A program made the position numbers and the translations under genes. The notes under the pieces were generated by a model. The model ran no database searches. It was given only the letters and a program-made list of their open reading frames with translations, and had not been told where the DNA came from. A stretch of DNA of 29,897 nucleotides from Syncephalis fuscata (taxonomy: Eukaryota; Zoopagomycota; Zoopagomycetes; Zoopagales; Piptocephalidaceae): positions 1-29,897 of the forward strand of contig JAHLTZ010000089.1 of the NCBI GenBank assembly GCA_025786725.1, given 5' to 3'. Shown one piece after another: positions 6,281 through 22,701 of this stretch. The stretch's first letter is position 1; each line of letters starts with the position of its first letter.

Positions 6281-6921
6281 GCATATTTTGTATGGTTGTG
6301 CTTTTGGCATCTCATTACTTTTGTTAATTACATAATATTCATGTAACATCTACTATAAATAATAATAATTCTGGATTTCTATCAAACCACGCTTGCGTTA
6401 TTTTTAATTTAAACTAAATAGCTTTAAATATAAACTTATTAGTATATAAAAACATAATTTATAGTCTTTGCTTTATTATTTAAAGTCTATGGCAATACAT
6501 TATTTCAGTATAAATGCTTAGGACTTAATGTGATATACGTACCAAGGCGCCTTTACAAAGTCAATGACTACATGCATAATGCGTGTGATTCACCGTTGAA
6601 TTATGTCATAGCTTTGCAGTACGAAAATACGAGTCAATCGTAATCTAGACTTGCCCCAAAACTATGCTGTGTTTAAGATACATCAATCATTATTACGCCA
6701 CATAAATACACGCCTTTGGAATTTGCAGTTTTGCACGTTCAAGCAAATGGCACTATGCTTTAAATACTGCGTAATAAACACACGTTAGATCAAAATATGT
6801 ATTCATTTTGTTAAATTGGCTGTCTTTTTATCTTGCTTGACTACTTTGCTTCCTTTACATGTTTGATTAAACCTCTACTATCAACATAAAACATTCTACT
6901 TTGATTGTCTATATTTCCTGC
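6281..6921. other. Intergenic region upstream of the microexon locus
   Basis: AT-rich, no long reading frame. From about 6790 to 6931 there is a pyrimidine-rich stretch with no AG dinucleotide, as expected just upstream of a 3' splice site or inside a promoter or first intron. A mini-frame starting at ATG 6747 and ending at a GTAATA donor (6771) is a weak candidate for the first exon of the microexon gene. Confidence 0.4.
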
Positions 6922-9308
6922 ATGGTAATAAGTATTGCCATGATTTCGGTGGAAGCAGGCTCAACTCCACAGCCTCAAAGTATGGGAAACCATCTTACAT
7001 TGTACAGAAATTAAAACTGCGTTATTATAACAAAATTACGATTAGCCGACTGGAGTAAGTTTCAAAATTAAATGCCTACTATTCACAACGTATTTAATAA
7101 ATTCGCAATAATACCTTTAGGTACATTACTTTCAATAAAACAAATTATACTAAATAAGCCTGATGCTGATTTATTACATCTAAACATAATTTTGATAAAC
7201 TACATTTATAGGTTTTGGTATGTCGAGAAGCATGCACCACACAACTCGGCTAAATTCTGTTTTTTAATAGGTGGTAATTAGCATACTTTAAAAACTGCAC
7301 TTATGTTGGCCTAATTCACATCTTTTTACCATTGTTATTCAACTACACCAATTGACTTCACTAATATTACTAAATAGTAAGTTGTACACTAGATATTTAT
7401 ATAAATGTAATGTTACTTGGAATGCTAACCAATAACGGTTTTAGTTCATAATTGGTCTATTTATTAAATGGCAAGCTATTTTAATATACAAATAATTATA
7501 AATAAATATGTTGGGAAATTAACTGCAATATTTTTTGATATTGGCGTTGACAAACCAGCATTTATAGGCTTATATAAACCATATATTATGCTTAACTTTA
7601 TTACAATATCTATGTTAAATATTAAATCTGCTGTTTTCTACTTACTGATTCTAATGAATCAATTTATAGGAAGTATGTCGTAGCTGAGTTTTACTGTCCG
7701 TTCAAACTGACCTGTGGCTAATTTTGTATTAATCAACATTTATAGGAGGTAGGTTGCACATCAACATACACAGTTGATTCGTCAGTTTTAACATGCTAAT
7801 TATGCGCTTTTTAACCTTATGCCTTAGCTCCAAGTGAGCTGGTTATTTAAATAATAAGATATAAGCTGATCCAAACGTTGATTATCAATAATGGTAGATG
7901 GAAGTAAGTTGCGGTCTAAAACTATGACATGAAAACAAGCTGTCATTGACCATGCATTATTGTCTATGCATCATGTATAATGAATTGGTATTGTAGAACG
8001 TAATAAATTATTTTGTATTTTGTTTTAAAAAGCTAATCGTTATTTAATGGTTCATATGTTATCAATAGCACCATTTATGTTAAGTTTTGAATTACTGTGG
8101 ATAACCTTTTTAGACATAATACTAATCTTATAATGCTGCCACTCTTGCGCTGTTCTGTTTATAAATAACATAGCAAATGGCAAGTTGTAAATCTAAACGT
8201 GCATTGCTAAATTTATTGTGTAATAATATTAATGTTTAACTCAAACTAAATCAAATAGATAGTAAGCTAAATATAAATATTCATTGCAATTTTTTAAACT
8301 AATACTAACTGTGCTTATCTGATACTACTTCTTACTATATTGTATGACAACAAATGGTGAGTTGCCAATTTTTATTATTGTGCTTAAATTACACTAGTTT
8401 GCCATTATTGATTTTAATACTGATTTAATAACAATATGTTATTAGGTCTAGGTAGGCTGTGTAATCAAATAATAACTGCGTGGTGGTTATTATCAAGTTA
8501 TAACTAATCGGCATTTTTGGCATTTTATTGCCATACTCAATAATAGGAAGTAAGTTTTAGACTACAATATATTTAATTGTAACTGGTAGCAACCAATCAA
8601 TCAATTGTTTACGCAAATAATATTAACATTAACAGGAGGTAGGCTGCAAATAACCTACTCGTGTATATAATGATTTTATTAAACAATGTAAACCACTTGT
8701 TGTCAAATAAACGACACGTTCAACATTTGGTTATTAATAGCTCCAGGCAAAGCACAAATGTGCGTATTAACATATTAGCAATCGTATTTATACTATACCT
8801 TAACGCAATGTTAACAGGCGGAAGTAAGTTATATATATATATGAACTGATTTAGCACAATTATTTGTTAACTTTTAGCTACTTTCTTAACTTAATACATC
8901 AACTTTAATAGCAAGACGTAAGGCAATTATTGAATTATTGTATTCTAAACAATCAATTTTAAAATTAATCATTTTACGTTGATTGTTGCTATCTCAATGA
9001 TTAATTAACGAAATAATCAAAACAGGCTAGTGTAAGTTTTAGAATCCAATAGTCATTTATTGCCCTGTATGAATTATACTGTTTGTGCAATTTTTGTTAA
9101 AACTATACCTGATACATCAATGCTGACCAAATGTAAGTTGTGAATTTTTAATACGATATTTAAGCAAGAATATATTTCAATCCAACGCGATCTTTACTGT
9201 GTTTAGGATTTTCGCCATAAAGAAGTGAAGAGAACCAATATTGATACAAGTTTGTTCCACTGTCACAAAACATTCAGCAATGGTTCCATCAATAGTCGGA
9301 TTCACTAA
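6922..9308 (+). CDS. Candidate microexon gene: at least 17 exons of 3, 6 or 9 nt
   Basis: Seventeen short segments each follow an AG acceptor and precede a GTAAGT/GTAGGT/GTGAGC-like or GC donor: 7046-7054, 7212-7217, 7271-7273, 7670-7672, 7746-7748, 7828-7833, 7898-7903, 7997-7999, 8174-8179, 8259-8261, 8446-8451, 8547-8549, 8636-8638, 8741-8746, 8818-8823, 8912-8917 and 9026-9031. All lengths are multiples of three (84 nt in total). The possible 5' exon is 6922-6979 (MVISIAMISVEA, hydrophobic) or only 6959-6979; the terminal exon starts at 9207. Read in phase 0, the chain gives a helical Glu/Gln-rich peptide (VEELQMEN, EELQAEQDAS) leading into a 33-codon final frame, but exon 8446 (GTCTAG) would put in a stop. 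Phase 1 avoids that stop and ends inside 9026-9031. The start, phase and coding status are therefore unresolved. The function is unknown. Confidence 0.5.
7670..7903 (+). repeat. Microexon block A: GAA, GAG, CTCCAA, ATGGAA
   Basis: Four successive candidate microexons at 7670-7672, 7746-7748, 7828-7833 and 7898-7903. They match block B (8547-8823) in order and length and in 15 of 18 exon bases. The donor after GAG is also kept (GTAGGTTGCA here, GTAGGCTGCA in B). The introns between them do not align by eye. Confidence 0.6.
8547..8823 (+). repeat. Microexon block B: GAA, GAG, CTCCAG, GCGGAA
   Basis: This is the second copy of the four-exon series, at 8547-8549, 8636-8638, 8741-8746 and 8818-8823. 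In phase 0 the copies encode E-E-L-Q-M-E (A) and E-E-L-Q-A-E (B), with CAA/CAG a synonymous difference. The third exon is followed by a GC donor (GCAAAG), where block A has GTGAGC. Confidence 0.6.
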
Positions 9309-11136: not shown

Positions 11137-13959
11137 TTAAATGCAGGCTAGAGTAACCTTGCCACGGCATTGTTTAAAGGCGTTGTTGACTGCGTCATCG
11201 TCCGTCAATGGAATGTTTGTGCCATCTGGACAACGGAATACCAATGTGCGTCCAGCAAGTGCTTCGGCCGGCAACTTTTCGCGAATTAGTGATCGGAATA
11301 CAGCTGCTTTCAACGTGCTATAGTCAGCATCCTTTTTAACACGGAAGCGAACTGCTTGTGTCGTTTCATCTTCAGTAATGGACTGTGATGTTAAGCTTGA
11401 TTTGCGAGTATAATTAACCTGCTTATTAGCATCATTAGCAGTGATGGAGGAGGAGGGTACAAATGCTGCTGCAGCTGTAGCCGCCATAAGTCGTTTGCGT
11501 CGATGTGCTTCAAAGCCACTCGTAGCCATCTTCAAATTGTTATCAAAGGTCAGACCAACTGTGCTAGGTGTAGTCTTTGTTATCGACAATCGTCTATTGC
11601 GTTGAGTAGCTTTGCGTGGTGGTGCAGCCTTTGAAGCTATAATAATCGAGCTTGGTCGTTCAACGGTCACTGGCCTTTGTGACTGTTTATATTTTAAAGC
11701 GGCTACAGTTGGCGATGGTGACAATGGCACAGCAATAGCCTCAATAATCGATTGAGCTGTATTAACTGCCGTCAATTGAGCTGGATCAATATTGCAGAGC
11801 GGCTCATTGCTAAGAATAGTTTCAAGTTTTGTAGGAATAGATGGCCGACGTCCTTGAGGTAGCCCCGTTACAAAAGGCTTAGGCTTTGAGATGTAATGCG
11901 ATTTCATACCAACTTCTTCCATCTGTTCAATAGGTGTTTGGCGCCAACGTGCCTGTTTGGGTGGTGGACCAACAACCGGCACAGAACGAGAACGGCGGTG
12001 TTCACGCGGCTGAGCATAGGAGATTTCACAGCGAAGACGAAGTTCACCATTGCATAGCTCAATCTCTTTGCTTAGTGTACGATCGCCGAGTACACGCTTT
12101 GGTCGACTATTTTCAGATGGTATTGTCCATATCATAATGCGGCTATCATCGGCGTCTCTTTCAATAAAGTTACGCTTGCGTAATTCAAAATCAATAACAT
12201 CATACAATGTAGCGTAATCAATGTCAAACGGTACAAAAAGCTGCAGCGGCTTTTTGAAACGCCACTGCACAACGGATATCTTCAAAGGAACCTCATCAAT
12301 ACTAGCTATCGATTGAACGGTACTGGGTCGGCTGCTTAATGAAATGGCAGTATGTGTTAATGGCGTCAATAGCTCTTCAATTGTTGTCCCTGGCTCACGA
12401 TTCTTTAGTGGCGCATATAAATCCAACAAGTCAGAAAATTCTGTGGACCGTGTGGCGGCCGAATTTGGCAAAGACATAGAATCGCCTTCGTATGAATCGA
12501 CAGATGATCGGTCCAATGAAGAGTCGGACATTTCAGCTGGTAGCGCCTCCATGGGCGCATCGGCACTATCACTTTGCAGTGCATGTACTGTTTTATTGTC
12601 TTCTTGTAAACTAGGCACTGGTGGTAATTCCTTATCAAGCGACTTTATCGTAAGATTAGGCTGGCTTTTAGTAGCTTGCTTCAGATTACCAAGAGGTGGT
12701 GATAAGTTGTTGATGTTACCCTTTTCACTAGTTAGGTTAGAGCTGCTATGGCTGCTAATACTGCCGCCAATATTGCTTGGTACTGACGGTGCGCCATTGA
12801 TTGAGTTCCTTCTTGACACAAGCTTGAATTCATCTAGGCCTAAATCGATATCAATCGATATATCATCCAAGTATGAATAGTTGCCAGCAACTTCTGGTAC
12901 ATTCTGAGATGCAACAGAAGGCACAGTAGGATTGTTAAGCGCATTAGTTGCCCAAGCAATGCCATCATTTGAATTTTGTCTAAATAGATTATTGCTTGCA
13001 TCGTCAATGGGCCGGCTTCGGTGCAATGCACGTGCCAAACGGCCACTAATAGCATTAAGCGAATTCGGCTTAGTATGAATGGCCAGCATGGTTGCTTCGC
13101 CACGACGTAATCCTGTAATATCGGCTGACGATACAACAAGCTGAGGGAGCCCAATCTTGTTGGCTTGAACATAACGACGTGAACGATTGTTACCGACACC
13201 TTGCCCGTTGGTGGCTGACATCACGGTCTCACGGTGCTTTCGTGGCCGAAGTAGCATGCTGGCTCGCTGCATCCACGGCATTGGCTCATTGTTTGCCGAT
13301 TGAGAGCGTCGGTGCGCCCTTAGGCTTGGATGGTCAACGTTACGCTGGCTCGACGATGCGTCGTCACTGCCATTGTTAAAAGCAACACAATTGCCGCTTG
13401 CCTGTAAATCAGATGGCCAGATACCGAAAAATTCCATCGAAGGACGTGCATCCAACACTAAAACAGGTAGTTTCAAAAGACCGTCCACAAACTGTTTCAA
13501 GTCATCCTGAATGTTTGGTAACGAGAAGTTGTTCCCCGGATCATTACAGATGGTCGTATCAGCTAGTCTTGAAATTTGTTGCAATAGCGCTGAATTGTCG
13601 CTGAAGAAAGCACAGAGTAAACAGCCATAGGAGCGGAAATCCATAAAACGACGACGAATTGTGTAGCCACGAGGTCCCGACTGTGACGGAGATGATGTCA
13701 GTTTTGTAGCATTTTCCTTCGCACTTGGTACAACACTAAATGTGAACCAAACTTGGTCCAGTGGCGGTGACGCTTGATTGCTGCCAATAATCTCGTATTT
13801 TCCCTGCTGTATATCAGCAAAAGGGCCGTTCAAGGTATCTGATACCGAGCCGTGTGAAGATGGAGGTGACTTTTCATGCATCATCGACTTGGATGCAGCA
13901 CTTTTAGCGATAGTAGTAGTAGTAGTAGTAGTAGTAGCAGTAGTATAGGCCATTTTCAC
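11137..13959 (-). CDS. PX and double PB1-like domain scaffold protein (paralogue 1), 940 aa
   Basis: One uninterrupted frame. The N-terminus has a poly-Thr run (residues ~6-16) from an ACT triplet repeat. Residues ~65-185 form a PX domain: YTIRRRFMDF holds the Arg/Arg/aromatic phosphoinositide-contact motif, and SMEFFGIWP closes the fold. A PB1-like domain lies at ~558-648 (LKISVVQWRFKKPLQLFV), and a second at the extreme C-terminus (~868-940, VRFRVKKDADYSTLKAAVF). Long Ser/Pro-rich disordered linkers join them. PX domains bind membrane phosphoinositides and PB1 domains pair with other PB1s, as in fungal polarity scaffolds such as Bem1/Scd2, but no SH3 domain is visible. A role in polarity or oxidase signalling is inference. 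Its paralogue lies 2.4 kb upstream on the same strand. Confidence 0.85.
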   Translation of the reverse strand: MKMAYTTATTTTTTTTIAKSAASKSMMHEKSPPSSHGSVSDTLNGPFADIQQGKYEIIGSNQASPPLDQVWFTFSVVPSAKENATKLTSSPSQSGPRGYTIRRRFMDFRSYGCLLCAFFSDNSALLQQISRLADTTICNDPGNNFSLPNIQDDLKQFVDGLLKLPVLVLDARPSMEFFGIWPSDLQASGNCVAFNNGSDDASSSQRNVDHPSLRAHRRSQSANNEPMPWMQRASMLLRPRKHRETVMSATNGQGVGNNRSRRYVQANKIGLPQLVVSSADITGLRRGEATMLAIHTKPNSLNAISGRLARALHRSRPIDDASNNLFRQNSNDGIAWATNALNNPTVPSVASQNVPEVAGNYSYLDDISIDIDLGLDEFKLVSRRNSINGAPSVPSNIGGSISSHSSSNLTSEKGNINNLSPPLGNLKQATKSQPNLTIKSLDKELPPVPSLQEDNKTVHALQSDSADAPMEALPAEMSDSSLDRSSVDSYEGDSMSLPNSAATRSTEFSDLLDLYAPLKNREPGTTIEELLTPLTHTAISLSSRPSTVQSIASIDEVPLKISVVQWRFKKPLQLFVPFDIDYATLYDVIDFELRKRNFIERDADDSRIMIWTIPSENSRPKRVLGDRTLSKEIELCNGELRLRCEISYAQPREHRRSRSVPVVGPPPKQARWRQTPIEQMEEVGMKSHYISKPKPFVTGLPQGRRPSIPTKLETILSNEPLCNIDPAQLTAVNTAQSIIEAIAVPLSPSPTVAALKYKQSQRPVTVERPSSIIIASKAAPPRKATQRNRRLSITKTTPSTVGLTFDNNLKMATSGFEAHRRKRLMAATAAAAFVPSSSITANDANKQVNYTRKSSLTSQSITEDETTQAVRFRVKKDADYSTLKAAVFRSLIREKLPAEALAGRTLVFRCPDGTNIPLTDDDAVNNAFKQCRGKVTLACI
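13911..13945. repeat. (AGT)n triplet microsatellite encoding poly-Thr
   Basis: A nearly perfect AGT run on the plus strand, read as ACT (Thr) codons at the N-terminus of paralogue 1. One CAG interrupts it. Confidence 0.85.
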
Positions 13960-16339
13960 GTAAATAAACGCAAATTATAACATATATTTGACTACAGCGT
14001 GAGCGTCAATGTAATCTAGAGTAAAACCAAGAACCAGCTTGTAATAGTAATAGGACGCGTTCTTCAAATAAAAATAGATAGAACAAAAGAAATAAGCTGA
14101 AATAATAGTAAAAAGGAGTTTTGTTTAACGGTCAAAGAGGCGAAGAAAAGGAACACCAGCAAATAGGTATACGAAATAATGGATACTGCCCAGCAGTCAA
14201 GAATAGAGTACGGAAGTTGAAAGAGTCAGAACTATGCAAAAATATTGAGAAAGAACACAAGTACTATAATGTGTGCACAATTCAAGAGATACCGATAATA
14301 AATGAATTAAAAATGAAAGAAGTACTTCGATGCTAGCTGCATGTCATATGAACTATAACTACAACACCGAGTGCCGTGGTCCCGCTTTGCTTAGTACGGG
14401 GTAATGTTGTCGCAGCCGCACAGCGGCTCTCAATCACACTGTCTGTGACAAACAATATACAGGAAGTGTAGCAAAGCATGGAAACAATGTAAGAAGTTTT
14501 ACTGACAAAAAACTGGATCATAAGGAGTTTTATTACTTATTTAGGCCAGACAGATTAATAAAGAAAAAAGGGGAGACTGTTTCGCTAACAAGCCGCATAA
14601 GTGCATAGCAATCCATACACGCGGTACTTGTCGATGGATCACATTATACAAGTGCTATAGTGGAATTAGTATTCTAAATATAACTTGCATGCTTTTACGT
14701 ATCAGGAGCTAAACGGATGTTGCACAGTTATTTGATTTGTACATTCTAAACAATCGAGCTAGAGTCATTTGCCGATAATGGACATAAATACAAACATCGA
14801 ACATTCTTTACAAAGTCTTCGTTAAATTACGAATCAATAAACAATGCTACTCCTAAGATAGTCACCATTCAAGGCTAACACGATACATTGCTACAGCCAT
14901 TTTTAAGGGTCATTCGCTAGGATGCGTGTTTTTTATTCGACGCTTATTAATGCTAAATGATATAGATGATATAGATGAATGAGTTGGTTGACATTTACTT
15001 TACGTTTTCTACTTTTTTTCCACCATTCTCTACTTTTGCGCAGTAATTTTTTTTTACAAAATCGATCGTAATGACAAGCCGATTAAATTGGTTTATGTTT
15101 AAATTACTATTTGTCATTTGCATCCATTTTATTACACTTTCCGCTTTCACTTTGTCAGAGTTTGAATTTTGCCTGACTATTCACACGTCACATCCAATAA
15201 CTAGTAAAAATGTGGCATCACAACTTTACAATAAGTATTGACCATGTGAATTGACATACAACATAACACATAAGCTATACCGATGTACATCATTATCGTT
15301 ATCGCCATAATATGCCATTGCTATTATATTGTCACTATTATGCTAAATAAATATTTAGTATATAAACCGGCCTATTTTATTAATCAAATAAACACTATTT
15401 TAAATTTCAATCCATATACCTGTAAAGCAGTGTAATACATGGATATGCAGTTTAAGCCAATGTTTAGCTGTTTAGTAAAGCCTATAGAATAATAAAAAGA
15501 TAATAGAATATTTGTTAAATAATAATATAGAATAGGTAATTAAGCGGCTATATTACTGCTTGGCCATGCTGCAATATAATTATTAGTTAGATTACTAAAC
15601 GATTAATGCTCGCATTAGAACAACAACTGCATTAATAATAGATACATTTAGTTATGTATAATATTATATAAAATTGGCTGCAATCGTAGCAATAACTTTA
15701 CATATAATTGAATAAATTATATGATATTTTGCACGAATATGCTTATGACATATAGATAGCTGTTGGCAAAGCATACCGTAATTTTATTGTGCGGTAGTAT
15801 AATGGTTGCAATAATACGCTAATAAATGTACAAAAATAACAGTTTTATACTATTTATGGCTCATATAAGTAAAATACAGCAAAACGGTCGCCGAATTTGA
15901 ATCCTCCATGCTTAGCTGCACAAGTTGATATAAGAAATAGAACACTAATTTTTGCAGCAAAAATTAGTCAAAAATGCAATCTGAATAAATCTATGTTGAC
16001 AAAATCTGTCATATGTGTTTATAACATAAATTGTCACTGTACATCAATATTTCTGCATACTAGATTGCCGTTATGCTTGTTTTAGCACTATAGAATGCCT
16101 TAGATTTACTTTACACCAAATTTCATTTTCAATATTAGAATCTTTAAAATTCTAAAACTTTGATTGCTCTTTGTTAACTAATTTATACGTAAATTACATT
16201 TTTGACTAATGGTATTTTGCTACTACCAAATAAGTGAATAAATTTATTAATTAAATAGCATATTTTATTATAATAGAGAAATGATAAAAAGAGAAAGGCA
16301 CATTTATGTGCGTTGTGTAATTGGTGATGATTATAATAA
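13960..16339. other. 2.4-kb spacer between the PX-PB1 paralogues
   Basis: This holds the promoter and 5' UTR of paralogue 1 and the 3' region of paralogue 2. Most of it is AT-rich with many stops. A GC-richer island at about 14370-14440 contains a perfect inverted repeat, AGCCGC-ACA-GCGGCT (14414-14428), and a 62-codon minus-strand frame (14333-14521) with a hydrophobic start. That frame is not convincing enough to call. No tRNA or mobile element is recognised. Confidence 0.45.
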
Positions 16340-19300
16340 TTAAATACAATGGAATACTAAATGGCTATTGCCCCCATCAAGACAGTCATCGACTGCTTCA
16401 CGTAGTGGTCCATCGCCACTCACAGTCAATTCACCGTGTGTGCCACGATAAACTAAAGCCTTGCCGGCAAATAACGTCTCGGGCATTTGACGACGAATAA
16501 GTTCGGCCCAAATAGATGCACGTAATGATGCGTACTCAACATTACGCATTGCCTGTAACAAAAAGTGTTGTCTATCATCGAGTTGCACGGTAATGTCAAG
16601 TCGACTTGTATCTGGTGCTTGTTTAGTAACCAATAAACGTGATTCAGAACGCATTTTGTGTAAAAGACGACGTGCACCACTTGTTGGTGCTGCTTCTTCG
16701 CTTGCTGCTGCAGTGGCTGTATCTGTCCCTTCTGCTTGATCGGCCAGTGCCGCTTCAGCCTTTAATTGTTCCTCTTCCTCTACTTGTGCTTGTCTTAATT
16801 GTTCAAGGAAGCTACGCTTGTTCTTTAGCTTTTGGGCCTTGGTTAATTCTTTCTTCTTGCCATCGGCCGGTTCCATATTGGTTTTGCTCGATAGACGTGG
16901 TGGCGGTACTACCGTAACTGATTCAGCCACCATTGCGTCCGTTGCTACTGAGCCATGATTAGTGGATGATGTAGCAATAGCCGTTGCTGCAGTAGTAGTA
17001 GTGCCATCTGTCGTTGTAGTCTCTGCAGCAGTATTGCTTGTATCTCCTTCTGAAGTACCCGCTTTATTGCGTGCCATACTCATCAAACTATTGGCACGGC
17101 GAATGCTGAAACTACTTACAAATCCACTCGCAGCCGTTTGGAATCGCGTCTTAAATGTGCTATCATTACCATCAACGGCCAACGATTGATTATCGGTATC
17201 ATTTTGTTCTTTGTTTGACATGAACGAAAAAGCACTAGAGAAGCTACTTGTCATTCGATTAGCAACTCGATCCTTTGGCTGTTCTGTCACCGCTGTAGTA
17301 TTGTCACTAGTTGATAACGAATCCTGAGAAACATTATTTAATCCAAGCTTGTGTGCAAGATCTGGATCCATCCATGGAGCAGTCAACGAAGGCGATACAA
17401 TTGATGAATCAGCACTAGCCGTACGTGATACTGGTGTAATTGTCAATGTAATATCTTCATTGTCATTAGTAGTAGTAGTAGTAGTAGTAACAGCATTAGA
17501 CGGTGTAGGGATGACTAGTGTTGGTTTAGTAGCTGGCTGATCAGCCAATTCAGCCGTTGATTTGTCAATATCAGCATTATTTGGTAACACTGCAGCTGAT
17601 TCAAGTGTAATTGATGGGCGACGATCAGTAGATGTTACTAATTCTTGTTTATCACCAGCTACATCCAGTGTATTGTTAACAGTATTCGATTCTAATACAG
17701 CATCTGATGGTAACATCGTTACCTTATTCAATGTATTCATTACATCTGATTCAATAACAGTAGCTACATCTTGATCAATGGACACAGGTACATCAATCTT
17801 TACTGTAGTAGCTTCTTCTTCTTCTTCATTATCTACTTCTTCATCGTCATAAATGTAACTTTCAAGATGTTCTGAAAGACGATACCATGAATTGACAGGT
17901 GGGGAAACTGGTGTTTCTGGTGTATCCATTTCCAGTAATGGAATACGTGATGGTGGTGCCAACGCTGATTGCTGTGCCGATGTAGATGACATAAGTGAAA
18001 ATGAACCACGCGGTAAACTCAATTGTAACTGTTCAATTAACGCCGGTGTTAATGGCACTTCACTATTAGATGGAATGGATACTTTTCGAATAGTTGTCGC
18101 CTGTGGTGGTGATGCAGGTGTTGGTTTTGTGGCATTTAAATCCTTCATGGCCTCTTCCATCAATGTCGTCTTTGTTTCTTCTAAGCTGTCATCTTTAGTA
18201 GGTGGCATTGGTAATGGTTTGGTCTTATTCGATTGATCTTCACTTTGATTACTAGAAGTTGACTTGGTGCTATTACTATCACTTGATGTAAATGCTGATA
18301 TAATTTTGGCAAATGCTCCTTTTCCCTGGCTACGTTTTGGTGGCAATGGTGATGGTGGCAATGGCTTATTTTCAGTAGGCTGCGATATTTCAAATGATGG
18401 TATAGTTGGCAAATCTGCATTAATATCCTTTCCCGCATTTGCAGTAGTAGTAGTAGTAGTAGTAGCTGGCTTATTATTACTAGTGGTCTTTGAGCAATAA
18501 AGTGCAATTTCATCATTTGTAACTAGTGCCATAACACGTTGAAGTGCATTATCATTTACTACACGAATAGGTTGACCATCTGGCTGATTTGGATCATTGC
18601 ATAGTAATAAACGTCCACTCATGCGTTCAGCCAATCCAGGAATACGCGACACTTCTTTCCATAGTGCATTGCGTAATTGTGCAAATTGTGCATTACGTAC
18701 TAAGCGTAAACGTACTTCGCGTGTTGAATCTACTCGTACAATAACAATAACATGTTGTGCATCAGATGATGACTGACTATGACTGGGTCCATTGTTGACC
18801 GTTAAGTTGTTATTTTGACCATTGGTAACTAGCGCTGATCGTCTAGCATCTGTACCACCTCGCTGTGGAGATCTTTCTGGAATAGGCGTAGCATGAATAC
18901 TACCAGTAAATGAATTATCTCTTCTATGATTGCCAGCAGATCTAGAACGAGCCATAGGCACGCCATGGCCTCCATTAATTGTCAATGCCGCCGTCATAAC
19001 TGTAATGGCTTCACTGCCCAAAGAGGCTGGCTGAAAGCTGTTTATATCGCTTTTACCCGTAAAAATAGATCCATTACTATTGGTCATTGATTTACGCCGA
19101 GTACCAATACTTTGTCTACGCTGTGAAGCATCAAATTTAAACGAAGCAGTTGACGAGGCGGCCGATGAGACATTAGAAGAAAGATGTGGTGTTGAAAGAT
19201 TGCCTAAACTTTGTACAGGTGAATTGCTACAGGACTCTCTATGGGCGGCTGCTTGAGCCAGGAAACGGGCCAATGTACTGGTTGATCCACTATTCGTTGA

Positions 19301-20654
19301 TTGACCTCCTAGTGGCGAAGTAGTATTGGTGGACCGTTTCATTGAAGAAGGCAAATATTGATCAAGTCCAGATGAATTGAGATCGACTGATGAGTTGTTA
19401 CTGCCCTTCCCCTTCTACGATCACTGTTGTGATGTAATATATCGGCAAGAGACGGTTCTCCTTGAGCGATGTTACATTATTTTGTTGAAATATGGCAGTA
19501 AAATCTGATAATAATTCACTATTCTGTTTGGTATCCAAATCCGGCAGCTTAAAATCAGTGGGTAGTCCATATGGCAATTGAGTATCTAATTAATGTATTT
19601 AGTGATTAGGTATATTTATATATATAATTTACCTACCTTCATTTGGTGTAGACATTTGATGCTGACCTGAAGAAGTACGTTTTATCGCTAGCGCTGATCC
19701 TTCAGAGCCACGTCGGCTATGACGCGAACGTCTACCGCCACTGTTACCACCATCATTACTTTCTTCATCACCACCTGATCGCTTGCCAGTAAATAAAGAG
19801 CTGACCCGTGTACGCACATGAGTAAATGAACGTACTTTACGCATACGTGCTTTGGATGGCTCTTCATCCGCCGATACATTACCATTGTCTAGATTGGACA
19901 AATTAAAAGGTGGCAATAGTCCATGGCTGCCTCCACCGCTACTCATCAGTCCACGTCACCTTCGCTACTTTGTCGACTTAATGAAATAATACCACCATTC
20001 GAACTGCCACTCTTAGAGGTGCGATGTCCTTGTTGAATGGTTTGGTCTTTGACATTGGCTTATTGAGCATCTGTGCAGCATGTTGTTTCATCGCCGATCT
20101 AAGTCATTAAGCGAACGTGCTCGTTGATTGCGGGGTCGGCGCATTTGGTGTAAGGCCTGTTTGCCACGCAAGGATAGATCGTCATCTGTGTGCCAGCGAC
20201 CAAGAAATTCCATGACAGGCCGTGATGTCAGTACAATATGCGAGGTTTCAAATAACTGAACAAGAAATGTGCCTAAATCCTCTTGTCGTTGTTCTTGCGT
20301 AATATTCTGGTCGAATTCATTGTCAAACGCCGCACCGATACATGTCGATAACTGGCGCAATAAATCCGAGTGCTGTTCAAATTCCTCGCACAGTTGATGC
20401 GTGAAACATTGAAAATCCTCATATCGGCGATAAACTGTGTACGGTTTACGCTGAAAAGAGACAGTTTGTGCATGCTTTATCACTGTGACCGGTTTTGGCT
20501 GGACTACCACCTGATACCAAACTTCCTCATCAATCAATTCATGCGTTACAAGTTGAGCATGCGACAGAGGCGGTGCCAGTTTAATGCCTTCATACTGCGC
20601 AGCAGATATGAGATCATCCCGATTGGACGTATTTGGACTTTTTGTGGTCATCAT
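16340..20654 (-). CDS. PX and double PB1-like scaffold protein (paralogue 2), reading frame broken
   Basis: Same domain order as the 11137-13959 gene. The PX exon starts at Met 20654 (MMTTKSPN); YTVYRRYEDF carries the PX binding motif and VMEFLGRW ends the domain. A frame rich in Ser/Gly follows, with an intron at 19636-19586 (51 nt). Then comes a long frame (19354-16340) with a PB1-like domain at 18754-18491 (VIVIVRVDSTREVRLRLV), acidic Ser/Thr linkers, a coiled-coil segment (near 16860-16740), and a C-terminal PB1-like domain (16597-16343, LDITVQLDDRQHFLLQAM). Between the PX exon and the long frame, coding-like sequence changes frame five times, each needing one extra base, with stops at 20088, 19978, 19946 and 19398 in successive frames. 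This could be consensus error or early decay; the long intact frames favour a working gene. The hydrophobic frame upstream of 20654 is probably untranslated. Confidence 0.75.
17466..17489. repeat. (AGT)n triplet microsatellite encoding poly-Thr
   Basis: About eight AGT units on the plus strand, read as ACT (Thr) codons in the linker of paralogue 2. They encode the Thr run between VIPTPSNAV and NDNED. Confidence 0.85.
18441..18465. repeat. (AGT)n triplet microsatellite encoding poly-Thr
   Basis: About eight AGT units, read as Thr codons just after the first PB1-like domain of paralogue 2 (before NAGKDINADL). It is the same unit, on the same coding strand, as in paralogue 1. Confidence 0.85.
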
Positions 20655-22701
20655 CTTGGCAATATAAAGTAAGTAATTCGTACAAACGGCAGCGGTAACT
20701 ATTTGAGTATTGTAAAGAAGAAGAATAAGTGTAGTAGTAATAAGAGTAATAAGAATAAGCGATAAAAACGAAGCCAGCACTACAGTTTACAGTAGTATAA
20801 AACCAAGTGCTTAATAGAAGGAATAAACGTCACGTTTGACCAGTCAACGTGCTGTGTTAATAGTAAATAGTATTGCTGTATCAATTGATATGAAAGGTAG
20901 TATGCGAATAGTAGTAGAGTGTATATGATGTATAGTAAAGCGAACGTGTAAACGTGCGTAGTTTGTAATAGCAAGTAAATACCAAAACATCAAATAGAAA
21001 GCGGCAAATAATATGTCTGTACCATGTATATTCACTAGACAAAGACAATACAACAAATTTGTAATACGTGCACAAGTGCTAACAATTTGAACCAGGATAT
21101 GGTTTAAATAAAAAATGCAACCAAATAATGGTCAATAAAGAAAACAGAAGCACGGCGATAGAAGAGAAGAACTAGAACGAAAGCGAGAAAGAAGAAGTAC
21201 GGCGATTGGTGAAACAAAGATGCCGTTCAAATGCTTAATTGTCGTTGTCTATGTTGTGTGTGTGTGTGTGTGTGTTATGTTGGTTGTACAGCACTTGACC
21301 GGTTTACGTTCTTCATATAGATTGAGTGAGTGTATGAGCGAGTAAGAGGAAATTGAGGCCACACTGTGTTGTCGTCTCCTTCAAATAGTCACTCTTCACT
21401 CATATCCACACCTTGTTGGTACAAGCATCACGGAGTAAACAACAATAAATAAATTCAAACTGAGTTTTAAATAAATTAACCACACATTTGATCACAGTTT
21501 GACTTTACAAGGCGACCATGTGCACGCATATCGTACACATAAAAGTGCAGCTTGTTGTTTAAAAAGCCATGTGAATTGCATCTGAGTGCTTCTTTATTCT
21601 TGAATCAAGTCGTATACTTACACCAAACAAGGGAAACCGTCCTTGTAATTAACGGTTACTTGCTTTGTTACTATTATGATTGTTATAACCGTTATTACTG
21701 TTCACCTTGTTGCTATTGTTGCATATTATTATTATTATTATTTATATAATTGCTATTATTACACATTATTGTTATTTGTATTTATATTGTTACAAAACTA
21801 GTAATACAATGGTGAAACGTTGACCAGGCAAACGAGTAAGGAGAGAAATATAGGGGATAGTTTGGTCGAATGTTTTGATATCAATCCAATAAGATTATTA
21901 CTACTATTAATGGCAAGTAACTTTAAGTTTCAAGTACACCTCAAACCAACAAACTTATAATAAAATGCATAACTGTATAAATTTAACAATAGTTAAATAA
22001 AATTGGTGTAAGAATATATATATTATTATTTAAGTAACAGTATGATGTATTTATAATATTGATAAAGCTCTAATAAAAATTACAAAGCTAAAAAATCCCT
22101 GATGGAAAAAACAAAGCGCAATGATACAAAGCTTAAATTAAAACTCCGTTTATTGATGTAATTTAGTAAATATAAAATTATGATTGCTATTATTACGCAT
22201 TATTACAAACATTCACACGATAGAGTTTATTACATTACTATTGATATTCAAACAATTGTTATTATTACACAGTAACTGATGTTATCTAATATTATTTAAT
22301 ATATATTTGGAACAAAGTTGACGGAGATACAAATAAATCAAGTGATACAATGATGCCATATAATTTATACAGCAATTCATCCATTTGCCTCTATATAAAG
22401 ATATTTATGCCTATTTAAGCAAGTAATTAAAAAAGACAAAAATGCTATTCTATGAATATGCCATCCAATGATAGTAATTAGATATATGATCCACGGAAAT
22501 AAAGTATAGAATGGCTAGTCATTTAAGTGTCGTCCTATAGTATAAATATCAATTAAGCACTAGCGGTAGACAAATAGATAATTTCCTAGCCCGATGTCGG
22601 CTTATTACTATCCATTTGTCTAGTGTGGGTCGTGGTCCAATTGATCAAGTGATCTATAAAACAAAGGTTACATAATTAGAATCTACTATAAAAATGGTGT
22701 T
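20655..22701. other. 2-kb intergenic region upstream of paralogue 2
   Basis: AT-rich DNA with a purine-rich part (about 21130-21210) and several trinucleotide ATT/TAT runs (about 21715-21775). It should contain the promoter and 5' UTR of paralogue 2 and the 3' UTR of the MYST gene. Only short unconvincing frames are seen, including the hydrophobic one immediately upstream of the PX exon. Confidence 0.5.
21255..21275. repeat. (TG)n dinucleotide microsatellite
   Basis: A pure alternating TG run of about 21 bases in the intergenic region upstream of paralogue 2. Confidence 0.9.

Follow-up and report, generated by a model that had tools for sequence, protein, structure and literature searches.

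The window analysed here is a 29,897-nt stretch of Syncephalis fuscata DNA (contig JAHLTZ010000089.1) that carries several protein-coding regions together with an array of candidate micro-exons. The F-box protein encoded in the window matches BDF19DRAFT_451443 of S. fuscata, a member of the Zoopagales in NCBI taxonomy, at 99% over its full length. A gene on the minus strand has open frames in 1409-2647; its 1409-1885 part partially matches a protein kinase (E 2e-6, under the Pfam cut-off), and an upstream frame has a hydrophobic start that could be a signal peptide. Several long open frames occupy 11137-20786 of the same strand, with a PX domain in 20088-20786 and no Pfam match in 11137-13974 or 16340-19414. 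An ordinary GH63 gene lies near 27 kb, and five of its ordinary introns, picked by eye, are 63-75 nt long.

The array lies on the forward strand (Table 1), where all 17 sites of the original prediction, each consisting of AG, 3, 6 or 9 nt and a donor, are present in 7046-9031. Successive sites are separated by 53-184 nt in 15 of the 16 gaps and by 396 nt in the remaining one, as had been noted. The sites had also been credited with good donors, which is correct for 12 of the 17; the other five are weak (GTAATT at 7274, GTGAGC at 7834, GTAATA at 8000, GCAAGT at 8180 and GCAAAG at 8747). Three further donors within the array, at 7377, 8357 and 9133, are good but lack a usable AG close by; in the case of 7377, AG and GTAAGT share their G. 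All 17 sites are real as sequence and, in our judgement, about 15-16 are convincing as exons, given the weak donors, the loss of the GC donor at 8180 in a second copy of the locus (L049) and the donors lacking an AG.

Table 1. Predicted features of the micro-exon gene in the window
Feature	Coordinates	Strand	Details
Candidate first coding exon	6922..6979	+	MVISIAMISVEAGSTPQPQ; phase 1 end before GTATGG
Upstream extension of first exon	frame open to ATA at 6886	+	IKHSTLIVYISC...
Micro-exon 1	7046..7054	+	9 nt CCGACTGGA; donor GTAAGT
Micro-exon 2	7212..7217	+	6 nt GTTTTG; donor GTATGT
Micro-exon 3	7271..7273	+	3 nt GTG; weak donor GTAATT
Micro-exon 4	7670..7672	+	3 nt GAA; first repeat block
Micro-exon 5	7746..7748	+	3 nt GAG; first repeat block
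Micro-exon 6	7828..7833	+	6 nt CTCCAA; weak donor GTGAGC, backed by repeat block
Micro-exon 7	7898..7903	+	6 nt ATGGAA; first repeat block
Micro-exon 8	7997..7999	+	3 nt AAC; weak donor GTAATA
Doubtful micro-exon 9	8174..8179	+	6 nt CAAATG; GC donor, absent in copy L049
Micro-exon 10	8259..8261	+	3 nt ATA
Micro-exon 11	8446..8451	+	6 nt GTCTAG; second repeat block
Micro-exon 12	8547..8549	+	3 nt GAA; second repeat block
Micro-exon 13	8636..8638	+	3 nt GAG; second repeat block
Micro-exon 14	8741..8746	+	6 nt CTCCAG; weak GC donor, backed by repeat block
Micro-exon 15	8818..8823	+	6 nt GCGGAA; second repeat block
Micro-exon 16	8912..8917	+	6 nt CAAGAC
Micro-exon 17	9026..9031	+	6 nt GCTAGT; in-frame stop TAG 9028-9030 in spliced frame

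A neutral count of such sites, which used a stricter list of donors and paired each donor with the closest AG upstream, gave 14 sites in 7001-9206. The mean was 2.6 (maximum 8) in 1,000 dinucleotide shuffles of the region and 3.4 in 103 other same-sized windows, with both strands counted. The minus strand of 7001-9206 has 6 sites. The multiple-of-three rule, originally stated without exception, held under this stricter rule for 12 of the 14 sites, the remaining two having an alternative 6-nt reading, and sites that are multiples of three averaged 0.9 (maximum 5) in the 1,000 shuffles. The richest of the 103 other windows, with 10 sites of which 7 are multiples of three, is the GH63 gene. Chance AG/GT pairs as the source of the sites are thus ruled out by the shuffles and the other windows.

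The predicted splicing of the first exon, read from the ATG at 6922, with the 17 pieces produces one open frame, MVISIAMISVEAGSTPQPQTDWSFGGRAPNGKPNDSLGRAPGGTRR, which ends inside the last micro-exon and remains open with or without the doubtful micro-exon 9; the other two frames contain stops. The exons GAA, GAG, CTCCA(A/G) and (AT/GC)GGAA occur twice in the same order, so that GRAP(N/G)G is encoded twice. The introns between these repeated exons align weakly, with scores of 5.5, 6.0, -1.0 and 5.5 including the splice sites (shuffled means -2.3, -3.4, 0.2 and 1.7; s.d. 3.2-3.9), and recurring exons amid weakly aligning introns are the pattern expected from selection on the peptide. Over 2,800 bp, the second copy, L049 (C228), shows 21 substitutions and one gap of 5 bp; we saw none of these differences inside micro-exons except at the doubtful exon 9. 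The true start codon is uncertain; there is no ATG at the expected place, and L049 is identical in this region; the frame that runs back to ATA would complete a longer signal peptide. L049 is the only relative of this gene in the S. fuscata genome, and no homologues occur in the collections searched.

The frame-keeping reading of the array is supported by the same genome, which contains a large family of genes with 3-nt exons, an open frame and uninterrupted paralogues. A genome search with TAGGAAGTAAGTT, allowing one mismatch, returned 91 + 119 matches against 18 + 21 for the control, and the 100 places listed among these matches are clustered. We analysed 40 stretches, comprising 20 fetched for motif clusters and 20 obtained only through a match to the first exon with its donor, a search in which all 40 scored of 285 candidates matched; the first 20 loci were chosen by the micro-exon motif and the tested genes are kin, so that the resulting counts are not independent. 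Across the set, 35 of the 40 stretches contain 37 genes with a first exon like MKLSIAVVCTIVVALVAVTTMVDAKPALVRR. Such a first exon is present in 16 of the second twenty stretches, and all 16 bear micro-exons (6 to 47 placed). Of the five remaining stretches, L047 is a contiguous gene, and L032, L033, L034 and L024 have lesions in the first exon. The common plan comprises a secretory exon (MKLS...KPALVRR), commonly 15-42 exons that are nearly all 3 nt long, and a last exon. The first exon is mostly 94-97 nt long and ends in phase 1, and the array unit of about 81 bp reads ...TAATATTAATAG, then three variable bases, then GTAAGT.... Array introns are mostly shorter than 110 nt and vary from 57 nt up. 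The N-termini of both the family and the window gene are hydrophobic by inspection and represent putative signal peptides. Pfam gave no family above the cut-off for four products. A search of solved structures gave a single match (E 1.3) that is not meaningful.

The length of the exons is sharply restricted. In the whole genome, ATTAATAG-N3-GTAAGT occurs 1,727 times (control 0), against 8 occurrences with a spacing of 1-2 nt (control 3), 4 with 4-5 nt (control 1) and 4 with 6 nt (control 0). A splice model that allowed exons of 1-12 nt with no length preference, using thresholds set by the analyst, assigned 1,070 exons to the 37 genes: 1,028 of 3 nt, 28 of 6 nt and 14 that are not multiples of three (five of 2 nt, five of 4 nt, two of 10 nt and one each of 1 and 5 nt). 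Four of the five 4-nt calls come from L011 and L018, a pair of genes in which the same position can also be read as a 6-nt exon. The donor is GTAAGT in 937 of the 1,070 exons. Scaling the exact cores (1,727 x 2.14) suggests that the genome probably contains some 3,700 3-nt exons, haplotype copies included. Tandem duplication alone could maintain a length of 3 nt, but intron lengths in the same arrays vary.

The frame was evaluated in 25 of the 37 genes, after 12 with an exon that is not a multiple of three or a first exon not in phase 1 had been dropped. The predicted frame has no stops in 705 codons, and the other frames have 6 in 705 and 57 in 680; shuffling the order of micro-exons within genes produced a mean of 40.8 stops and a minimum of 26 over 1,000 rounds. 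Cysteines number 117 in the predicted frame of these genes against a shuffled mean of 59.5 and a maximum of 80. A count of one cysteine spacing, present in 8 of the 25 tails, was too rigid a measure for use. A last exon was placed in 24 of the 37 genes, 15 of which belong to the 25 evaluated; in 14 of these 15 it gives a stop at its first or second codon, and the exception, L015, has no early stop. The predicted product of L043, for example, is MKLSIAVVCTIAIALVAVTTMVDANPALVRRGAKECKECVKNCLNANSTDSKPTADYCWDKCRQCYS. Three genes (L012+, L027 and L035) look broken.

Uninterrupted members of the family carry the same plan in contiguous form. One spliced product, obtained from a cruder exon caller that misses exons, was compared with 5.8 billion proteins and returned nine matches with E up to 1, all from S. 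fuscata. Among them, P0001 (BDF19DRAFT_453325) follows the plan of the split genes, ...NPALVRRGPKNPAKCKECINECEGVPKPSMKEKCNKPGRCKAECA, but the genome encodes its tail without interruption, as a single open frame, joined, by our reading, at the array start (CGTCGTG) and the array end (CATAATCGATG). Nine comparisons between three split and three contiguous genes gave identities of 82-88% over about 250 bp of promoter and 82-94% in the first exon, and the four possible comparisons of the 3' flank gave 80-85%. The shared promoter and 3' flank show that the twins did not arise as retrocopies inserted elsewhere. Among 313 candidate matches to P0001, 150 were scored; 105 of these end at or before residue 38, as expected of a split tail, and 45 extend further. 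Both counts are minimum values with haplotype copies included, and an early end may also mean a different tail. When spliced tails were compared with two contiguous tails, 7 of 25 genes beat all or all but one of 500 shuffles and 13 of 25 stood at 25 or fewer of 500 shuffles; 12 of 25 fail this test.

The public S. fuscata gene models that we examined lack the micro-exons. In two of them, P0004 (BDF19DRAFT_453770) and P0005 (BDF19DRAFT_436981), the tails KLYCILTDYALIACYLL... and KLYCALNFYSLIICHAL... look, by reading, like translation through an array intron. Two other annotated proteins, P0007 and P0008, have the same signal-peptide start and quite different tails; it seems that a constant secretory start is joined to tails of several kinds. 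At L050, L051, L052 and L024 there are additional arrays of 3-nt exons, whose first exons are of other types and whose intron consensus departs somewhat from that of the main family, which points to more than one subfamily. A scan of eight loci that the splice model had not covered found arrays in three of them (L050, L051 and L052), where 66 of 69 exons are 3 nt long and the others are one each of 2, 6 and 8 nt. L050 holds the 2- and 8-nt exons and therefore does not read through; in L051 and L052 the predicted frame covers 28 codons free of stops, and one of the two other frames is likewise open. The L012 stretch (C13:607000-616500) contains two divergent arrays, one on each strand, whose first exons are separated by about 1.5 kb; the plus-strand copy has a stop in its first exon.

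Some array introns are enlarged by other elements. Array introns longer than 400 nt number 15 (12 genes), and 13 of them contain elements of about 410 bp that are related to one another. Comparison of L009 (1729-2222) with L010 reveals an insertion with the flanking 16 bases repeated at both ends; one end of it, by eye, we take to resemble a tRNA-derived SINE. The 894-nt intron of the minus-strand gene at L012 holds two copies of the element. L011 and L018 have introns of 902-903 nt, which match one another and not the element.

Paralogues differ in an unusual pattern. Across 11 pairs, the sites that differ amount to 0-3% in donors, 0-11% in acceptors, 3-28% in introns and 2-58% in triplets. 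Triplets differ more than introns in 9 of the 11 pairs, by up to 4.5-fold, which is the reverse of the usual pattern; in L009/L010 and L021/L022 they differ slightly less. Indel events between paralogues number 158, of which 130 affect intron sequence away from the splice sites and 3 affect micro-exons, the remainder falling in acceptor stretches (17), donor stretches (6) and first exons (2). In flank-matched units, an intron difference of 0.087 corresponds to a triplet difference of 0.60 (random 0.715), and an intron difference of 0.017 to one of 0.08. This implies very strong selection on the triplets or, alternatively, introns that have been homogenised or were inserted separately from them.

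Several known gene classes offer partial parallels, of which the micro-exon genes (MEGs) of Schistosoma mansoni are the nearest in function. As described in the cited parts of PMC10526429, MEGs have a signal peptide and a variable secreted product, both of which are putative in the S. fuscata genes, and share with these consecutive very short exons that are mostly multiples of three; they are likewise hard for automatic annotation. The original prediction had drawn this parallel, which is sound for short frame-keeping exons, present in both the family and the window gene, and does not extend to exon and intron sizes. MEGs are reported to have 10-20 short exons, mostly of 15 bp with a range of 6-81 bp (3-81 in the abstract), and introns of 0.1-5 kb (PMC10526429), whereas the S. 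fuscata genes commonly have 15-42 exons, nearly all of 3 nt (1,028 of 1,070), most introns shorter than 110 nt, tandem units and contiguous twin genes, and belong to a fungus. We saw no homology to MEGs: all nine protein matches are from S. fuscata, and four proteins are without a Pfam family above the cut-off. The bicycle genes of aphids are similarly rapidly evolving putative effectors with many small exons in one prevailing phase, averaging about 17 exons with almost all internal exons in phase 2 (PMC9168663, in the parts cited), while those of S. fuscata are in phase 1 with 3 nt per exon. Introners resemble the arrays in comprising many near-identical introns (PMC9860276, as excerpted) and differ in that copies of the one S. 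fuscata core tested are restricted to micro-exon arrays with a spacing of 3 nt and are not spread among many unrelated genes. Isolated 3-nt exons, one or two per gene, are described in Drosophila homothorax (PMC7392893, in part) and in lipS of Dactylellina haptotyla, which has two (PMC5639578, in part); S. fuscata has dozens in a row. A fungal microexon in Xlr2 of Trichoderma virens serves as a regulated switch in one transcription factor gene (PMC11121469, in the text cited). The assertion that no comparable fungal locus was known agrees with our searches of open PubMed Central papers, which showed none, nor any gene with runs of one-codon exons. Generously counted, the S. fuscata genes are an extreme of the micro-exon gene idea, and what we regard as new is the codon-length exon unit and the building of whole tails from it.

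Our best reading of these sequences is that they would be one-codon-per-exon genes for diversifying, cysteine-rich secreted peptides, produced by predicted splicing. The window gene is very probably a member of this S. fuscata class, with almost the whole mature part of a small secreted peptide built from consecutive micro-exons. The first exon would encode the signal peptide, to which the large family adds the dibasic KPALVRR stretch. Each unit would then supply a strong donor on the intron side, an ordinary-sized intron with a branch-site-like TTAAT near its AG, and one 3-nt exon, and the last exon would give the final two bases of a codon and the stop. Because the exons are multiples of three, codons span the junctions, and units could be gained, lost or skipped without a frameshift. 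The introns could be recognised without reference to the exon, since donor information lies on the intron side and the branch-site-like motif beside the AG; the intron definition originally suggested fits array introns about as long as ordinary introns in S. fuscata. Two splice sites separated by 3 nt are unlikely to be bound at the same time, so the introns probably leave sequentially.

Other accounts of the arrays fare poorly against the same data. A period of about 81 bp with many similar units is what a non-coding satellite with fortuitous splice-like motifs would offer, yet a satellite would not be expected to carry a common promoter, a signal-peptide-like exon, a stop exon and contiguous twins, and the window introns compared barely align while following the same grammar. 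The stop-free frame (0 of 705 against 40.8 after shuffling) and the cysteine excess led us to reject this account, to which we give practically no credence. The triplets might instead mark recursive splice points, mostly by-products or often skipped, with an mRNA that joins the first exon to the last. The ratchet points of flies have 0 nt between AG and GT, and the 3-nt spacing of AG and GTAAGT comes near this arrangement without being the direct AG-GT junction; a direct join of first to last exon would also be in frame. The triplets nevertheless form a cysteine-rich open frame that shuffling destroys, and contiguous twins encode such a tail, which makes ratchet splicing highly improbable. Decay is apparent in some copies, with exons that are not multiples of three, first-exon lesions and internal stops, so that the arrays might be formerly coding pseudogenes. 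Against this stand the 25 genes free of stops and the nearly invariant donors of paralogues whose introns differ, and we consider general decay very improbable.

How the arrays arose is a separate matter, on which two histories lead to the same present-day structure. Most likely, the arrays grew by tandem duplication of an intron-plus-codon unit, the codons then diversifying, and the uninterrupted twins would be explained most simply by replacement of an array with its own cDNA. The acceptor core ATTTAATATTAATAG adjoins NNN followed by G in 599 of its 608 genome-wide copies; the unit is therefore hardly used outside arrays, which favours growth within them. An introner acting alone was rejected for this reason, as hardly any copy of this one tested core lies outside arrays. 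Alternatively, introner-like elements may have been inserted at every codon, with the twins as the ancestral form. Introns that are 91-92% identical carry almost unrelated triplets (difference 0.56-0.65 against 0.715 for random), as expected if introns had been inserted into existing codons. We know of no insertion mechanism that yields an exact 3-nt spacing, and this, together with the confinement of the one core to arrays, leaves insertion a tentative and rather unlikely origin, even though introner-like elements exist in fungi (PMC4457414, PMC9860276, in the parts cited).

The products of the arrays would be processed, secreted, cysteine-rich peptides. Syncephalis is a parasite of other moulds, and this life, the putative signal peptide, the dibasic site and the variable tail suggest an interaction with host or rival fungi, toward which the peptides may diversify. 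It is possible, although rather unlikely, that the arrays act as a codon-by-codon diversification device, in which near-identical introns serve as recombination handles and 3-nt exons as single-residue cassettes. Exon skipping would then rewrite the codons that straddle junctions while keeping the frame, and one gene could both evolve unusually fast and yield many cysteine-rich peptides by splicing.

An exon of 3 nt is generally regarded as almost impossible to define. Should RNA confirm the predicted splicing, these genes would be more finely cut than known micro-exon genes, and a single organism would allow direct tests of how small an exon can be, in which order introns are removed and how intron definition operates, with paralogues that have or lack introns under similar promoters as a natural control. 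Confirmation would also reveal secreted proteins of a class overlooked by gene finders.
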